Assembly (NCBI GenBank): GCA_025934955.1
Contig: JAICWE010000002.1
Coordinates: forward strand, 1-64,000
DNA: 64,000 nucleotides
From: Gemmatimonadales bacterium
Lineage (GTDB): Bacteria; Gemmatimonadota; Gemmatimonadetes; Gemmatimonadales; GWC2-71-9
Direction of reading: 5' to 3'
Shown here: piece after piece, positions 23,035-48,861 of the stretch
Position numbering within the stretch: position 1 is the stretch's first letter
How the letters are laid out: each line of letters opens with the position of its first letter
The notes under the pieces: generated by a model
What the model was told of the DNA's origin: nothing
The model's input: the letters and a program-made list of their open reading frames with translations, nothing else
Databases searched by the model: none
Translations under genes and position numbers: made by a program

Positions 23035-24114
23035 CTACTCCGGCAGCTCCAGCGTGCGGGAAACTCGGAGCGCGCCGGCCGGCCCGCCGACGATCCGCCC
23101 GACGGTGGCGGCGACCGGCGTGGCTTCGTCCCCCAGCGCCGCGATCAACTCGGCGTGCTGCGCCGGCGGCACGGCGAGCAGCAGCCCGCCCGAGGTCTGC
23201 GCGTCACCGCAGAGCGCGCGCTCCGCCTCGGTGAGCGACGGGTCCCACTCCGCGTTGGCGCTCTCGAGATTGCGGAGCGTGCCGCCGGGCACGAAGCCGC
23301 GCGACGCGAGGTTCCACGCGTGCGGCAGGATCGGCAGACGCTCATACGCCAGCTCCGCCGCGACCCGGCTCGCCGCGAGGATGTTGCCGAGATGGCCGGT
23401 GAGCCCGAAGCCGGTAATGTCGGTGCACGCGCTCACGCCGACCCGGAGTGCCGCGCGCATCGCGCCGTCGTTGAGCGTCGTCATCGAGGCGACGGCGTCG
23501 GCCATGCCCGCGGGGAGCAGCGCGTCGCGCTTGAGCGCGGTCGCCAGGATGCCGGTGCCGAGCGGCTTGGTGAGCACCAGCAGATCGCCGGCGCAGGCGC
23601 CGGCGTTGGTGAGCATCCGGTCGGGATGCACCTCGCCAAACACCGCCATGCCGAACTTGGGCTCCGGGTCGTCCACCGAGTGCCCGCCCACCACGAGACA
23701 CCCCGCGCGCCGCGCCACGGCGGCCGCGCTCTCGATCACCTCGCCCAGCATGTCGAGCGGCAGCGTATCGCGGGGCCAGCCGACCAGGTTCAGCCCGAAG
23801 AGCGGCGTCGCGCCCATCGCGTAGATGTCGCTCAGCGCGTTGGCTGCGGCGATGGCGCCCCACGCCGACGGGTCATCCACGATGGGCGTGAAGAAGTCCA
23901 CCGTCGCCACGACCGCCCGGTCGTTCGACAGCCGGAACACCGCGGCGTCGTCGCGGCTGGCGGCGTCGACGAGAAGGCGAGGGTCGGAGACGTTCGGGAC
24001 GTGACGCAGCACGTGCGCCAACTCGGCGGGGCCGAGCTTGCAGGCTCAGCCGGCGCCGTGGGAGAGCGACGTGAGCCGGATGCGCGGCCGCTGGTCGGGA
24101 GCGGGATCGGCCAT
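23035..24114 (-). CDS. selD: selenophosphate synthase containing selenocysteine (in-frame TGA at 24046-24048)
   Basis: Reverse strand from ATG 24114: MADPAPDQRPRIRLTSLSHGAG-[TGA]-ACKLGPAELAHVLRHVPNVSDPRLLVD...; SelD glycine-rich/catalytic U/C-x-C-K motif; rest matches SelD (GGHSVDDPEPKFGMAVFGEVHP, TKPLGTGI, DITGFGLTGHL). Confidence 0.9.
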
Positions 24115-47042: not shown

Positions 47043-47075
47043 GCATGCGGCTGGTGGCCGACTAGTATTGGATCA

Positions 47076-48861
<1,786 letters not shown>

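Follow-up and report, generated by a model that had tools for sequence, protein, structure and literature searches.

The window analysed here is a stretch of 64,000 nucleotides from the draft genome of a Gemmatimonadales bacterium, and its minus strand carries selD, the gene for selenide water dikinase (selenophosphate synthetase). The reading frame runs from the ATG at 24114 to the TAG at 23037–23035, and its sole interruption is a TGA at codon 23 (24048–24046). A mechanical list of open reading frames begins the gene only at a TTG (24021), which gives an ORF of 328 aa. The original prediction had described this truncation, had found no stop upstream of the TTG other than the TGA, and had placed the TGA at the catalytic position of SelD; the frame and the alignments bear out all three statements. 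The 359-aa readthrough product matches the SelD profile TIGR00476 with 379.2 bits and covers profile positions 1–310 of 311, where the curated cut-off of this NCBIfam equivalog model is 125 bits. The Pfam domains AIRS and AIRS_C are both present. In an alignment with the solved SelD 3u0o, residue 23 falls on the Cys of SHGAGCGCK, and the motif SHGAGUACK holds both the catalytic Cys/Sec (U23) and the Lys three residues further on (K26). At the level of sequence, this confirms the locus as a full-length SelD gene with a TGA at the catalytic Cys position (Table 1).

Table 1. Features of the selD locus, of the wider window and of the source genome.
Feature	Location	Strand	Remarks
selD, selenide water dikinase (selenophosphate synthetase)	window 23035..24114	-	359 aa, predicted Sec at residue 23, ATG start, TAG stop
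In-frame TGA, predicted Sec23	window 24046..24048	-	catalytic Cys/Sec position of SelD, from alignment and codon counts in relatives
Predicted bacterial SECIS, apical hairpin UGGCGCA-CGUGC-UGCGUCA	window 24002..24020	-	loop 24013-24009, 32 nt after UGA
Hairpin CTCGGC-CCC-GCCGAG	window 24022..24036	-	may be an accessory helix; conserved among the Sec forms of Gemmatimonadota
TPP riboswitch	window 47072-47171	+	Rfam match, 59 bits
selA	contig C55		516 bits, above cut-off
selB	C106:7454-9283		complete, above cut-off
tRNA-Sec	contig C101		67.2 bits, anticodon TCA
Formate dehydrogenase alpha (FdhA; L129)	contig C70, position 1930		TGA in QARI-U-HSSTV
Peroxiredoxin-like, AhpC/TSA (L130)	C85:93849-94235	-	TGA in FFFKARTKG-U-TIQ
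Peroxiredoxin-like, AhpC/TSA (L131)	C4:2416-2784	+	TGA in NNTPG-U-NRQ
SelW-like (L132)	C47:3692-3901	-	TGA in CVV-U

A stem-loop with a stem of 7 bp spans 26–44 nt after the UGA. Its energy is −8.7 kcal/mol in a 21-mer and −8.0 kcal/mol for the 19-nt hairpin alone. The published model of the bacterial SECIS (bSECIS; PMC13188914) asks for an upper stem of 4–16 bp, a loop of 3–9 nt with a G in its first two bases, a spacing of 16–37 nt from the UGA and an energy at or under −7.5 kcal/mol, and the hairpin agrees with these rules in loop length, loop G, stem, spacing and energy. Pairing between the first and last loop bases, which the model describes as usual and not required, is absent in the window (C and C); 52 of 57 Sec genes have it, as G-C or G-U. 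The loop is CGUGC in place of the usual GGU(C/U)C. It carries G and then U at positions 2–3 and differs from the loop of most relatives at its first base; the codon is CAC (His) for CAG (Gln), a change shared only with one other gene (L111). In the SECIS of E. coli, G23 and U24 of the loop are important, as is a bulged U17 (PMC8659212). The bulged U is not seen in the window hairpin; the loop G-U is retained and probably corresponds to G23-U24. An Rfam search of the window returned no SECIS match. Ranked 47 of 61, the hairpin belongs to the weaker ones, and the 61-nt region taken whole is no stabler than shuffles (z −0.38). Since free folding of the 51–91-nt region is not significantly stabler than shuffles either, energy alone is no evidence for the element.

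In Sec genes the nucleotides GCG CAG GTC CTG CGC, which encode the peptide AQVLR and lie 28–42 nt past the UGA, are strongly conserved and fold to GCGCA-GGUCC-UGCGC. Pairing extends to 93.7% of cells in a set of 57 distinct Sec genes, with far lower values in slid controls. Both sides have changed in 15 cells, where shuffles give 2.8 and none of 500 is as high, and one pair shows all four Watson–Crick types (GC 45, CG 5, UA 3, AU 2). For 47 Cys genes the paired fraction is 43%, similar to their own shuffles. Among the genes placed on a tree, 51 of 59 Sec genes have all five core pairs (the other eight lack the full set in this register) versus 0 of 47 Cys genes, and when independent pairs of genes on well-supported branches are compared, the hairpin tracks Sec in 6.5 of 7 cases on average (median p 0.016).

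Conservation of the peptide might mimic conservation of the hairpin, and we therefore compared genes with an identical AQVLR. Among Gemmatimonadota genes with this peptide, all pairs are kept in 29 of 29 Sec genes, with 12% expected for each from codon use; these genes share ancestry, so that the product of the chances is no p-value. The hairpin occurs in none of the three Cys genes with the same peptide, and the breaks are synonymous changes. The pairing even appears to set an amino acid of SelD: four codons after the Ala codon stands CGC (Arg) where that codon is GCG, GGU (Gly) where it is GCC, AGU (Ser) where it is GCU and UGC (Cys) where it is GCA. The fit to the bSECIS rules, together with the retention of the pairs in Sec and not in Cys genes, indicates that the SECIS of this gene is standard rather than divergent.

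The original prediction had pointed to another hairpin, CTCGGC-CCC-GCCGAG, and had raised the possibility of a divergent SECIS. The hairpin is indeed there, at 24036–24022 after a gap of 9 nt from the TGA; the suggestion of a divergent SECIS with a CCC loop found no support, with a standard bSECIS hairpin lying directly downstream. That it is nonetheless the SECIS, in place of the 24002–24020 hairpin, we regard as improbable. It is stable, shows some covariation and is over-conserved in Gemmatimonadota, where 19 of 30 Sec genes have it complete but only one of nine Cys genes does (p 0.008); among the Sec genes with the peptide LGxAE it is complete in 19 of 24 versus 9% expected from codon use. 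Shared ancestry weakens these numbers. However, its loop contains no G and starts 15 nt after the UGA, outside the 16–37 nt of the published model. Outside the Gemmatimonadota, just 7 of 28 Sec genes have it complete, compared with 21 of 28 for the downstream hairpin, and one Cys gene (L052) keeps it whole. The CCC-loop hairpin may be an accessory helix and is not likely to be the loop that SelB recognises. For the Sec genes of other phyla, a GGUCC..GGACC hairpin was considered as a common upstream helix and rejected, as it gave no covariation signal.

The codon at the catalytic position was counted in 109 relatives: 61 have TGA, 31 TGC and 17 TGT, and no other residue occurs. In Gemmatimonadota the Sec and Cys forms are interspersed. 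A tree from which the Sec codon and the next 15 residues had been excluded requires 14 or more changes between the two states, of which 7 are forced by well-supported branches; conversion of Sec to Cys has been reported as common in SelD (PMC1794560). Most Cys-form genomes of the family retain selB and tRNA-Sec above cut-off (both are found in G001, G012, G013, G020 and G033), which indicates that the Cys form there is not tied to loss of the Sec trait.

The source genome is a 3.05-Mb draft of 110 contigs, 88% complete with 0% contamination, and the window lies in its contig C52. SelA, SelB and tRNA-Sec, which the original prediction expected in the genome, are all encoded in it; the complete selB has a GTPase, a beta-barrel and the winged-helix domains SelB-wing_2 and SelB-wing_3. 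The selenouridine synthase YbbB was looked for in the genome and not found, so the use of selenophosphate for selenouridine is without support. Four further genes of the genome contain an in-frame TGA: formate dehydrogenase alpha, two peroxiredoxin-like genes and a SelW-like gene. Three of the four have SECIS-like hairpins, with the loop GGUCU 18 nt from the UGA in FdhA, the loop CGUGAUCA at 21 nt in one peroxiredoxin-like gene (L130) and the loop GGU at 22 nt in the SelW-like gene. The L130 loop begins with CGU, as does the SelD loop of the window. No uninterrupted hairpin of the model type follows the TGA of the other peroxiredoxin-like gene (L131). Counting these genes, the genome would encode four or five selenoproteins, SelD among them. 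A scan of codon-position composition over the whole 64-kb window gave no convincing further TGA-interrupted genes.

These observations bear on the possibility that an error of sequencing or assembly turned a Cys codon (TGC or TGT) into the TGA, which we consider very unlikely, as only these three codons occur in the 109 relatives. The near relatives L019, L021 and L022 do have TGC, but the TGC and TGT relatives are without the downstream hairpin; this marks them as evolved Cys forms, and they give no evidence of an error in the window. A search for TGC or TGT in close homologues had been proposed as a check, and it revealed close homologues with TGA at the same codon; L020, L023, L048, L053 and many more are independent relatives of this kind. 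Moreover, the source genome retains all five pairs of the hairpin, a full set that is found in no Cys gene, and it has the full Sec machinery and other TGA-containing selenoprotein genes. We dismiss almost entirely the idea that selD is truncated or a pseudogene, with the UGA acting as a terminator and a shorter protein starting at TTG 24021: standard ORF calling does yield the 328-aa frame, but its product would be without Lys26 and the catalytic Cys/Sec, the stretch before the TGA (RIRLTSLSHGAG) is conserved across phyla, and the RNA hairpin is conserved.

The reading that we favour, with a probability of about 95%, is that selD encodes a selenoprotein whose UGA at codon 23 is decoded through the SECIS at 24002–24020. 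Selenocysteine would be inserted at this codon from tRNA-Sec delivered by SelB, and SelB would bind the stem-loop 26–44 nt after the UGA. At the catalytic site, Sec23 together with Lys26 would help to transfer the gamma-phosphate of ATP to selenide, and the selenophosphate synthetase activity that we infer for the product would supply SelA with selenophosphate for the synthesis of Sec-tRNA. SelD would then require its own product for its own synthesis, a positive loop, and would support a small selenoproteome that includes formate dehydrogenase. More tentatively, and at somewhat less than even odds, the two abutting hairpins of Gemmatimonadota selD might form a bipartite recoding signal, in which the downstream SECIS binds SelB and the upstream hairpin tunes readthrough, and in which the RNA also dictates the residue after LAQVL (Arg, Gly, Ser or Cys) via the wobble position of the Ala codon that lies four codons earlier.

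Both Sec-containing SelD and the bSECIS are already established, and the case in the window is ordinary in kind. Of the SelD genes detected in a set of reference prokaryotes, 19% were reported to contain Sec, and the bacterial SECIS of Sec-SelD genes were recovered in the same study (PMC4561486). The Sec-containing SelD of many bacteria likewise has Sec at the same single position of the N-terminal selenium-binding loop and a SECIS inside the coding sequence just past the UGA; the window differs from them in no kind, but in one loop base (CGUGC). With the bSECIS consensus and the formate dehydrogenase type of E. coli, the window hairpin shares the stem, loop, G-U, range of spacing and energy. 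It differs from them in that the SelD loop lies at 32 nt and not at 18 nt, and in that selD of Gemmatimonadota has an extra hairpin between the UGA and the SECIS. The SelD loops of relatives, GGUCU and GGUCC, resemble the GGUCU loop of the FdhA element of the source genome itself. The Cys-containing SelD proteins (3u0o and those of several Gemmatimonadota) belong to the same family and have the motif SHGAG-C/U-(A/G)CK in common; they differ by the Cys codon and the loss of the hairpin, and most such Gemmatimonadota genomes still have selB and tRNA-Sec. A literature search on Sec-SelD and bSECIS found no paper naming Gemmatimonadota, which is not proof that there is none.

The present case adds a position for the SECIS that has strong comparative support, and a small selenoproteome. 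Standard annotation is likely to start selD at the wrong site and to lose its catalytic residue, and the other TGA-containing genes of the source genome face the same risk. The close Sec and Cys forms of the Gemmatimonadota, with the Sec machinery mostly kept, offer a good natural experiment on how the RNA signal is lost along with the Sec codon, and on the retention of an amino-acid motif (LAQVLR) through RNA structure.

Two genomes that are 98–99% complete, G026 and G042, have a TGA-containing selD and a strong tRNA-Sec, yet no selB above cut-off; the search there gave EF-Tu-like matches only, and selB is likely missing through assembly gaps. A pairing of selD with selC that is not seen in the source genome occurs in a sister family (G037, G039, G041, G049, G051–G055, G059 and G060), where no more than ~160 nt separate tRNA-Sec from the 3' end of the selD match.
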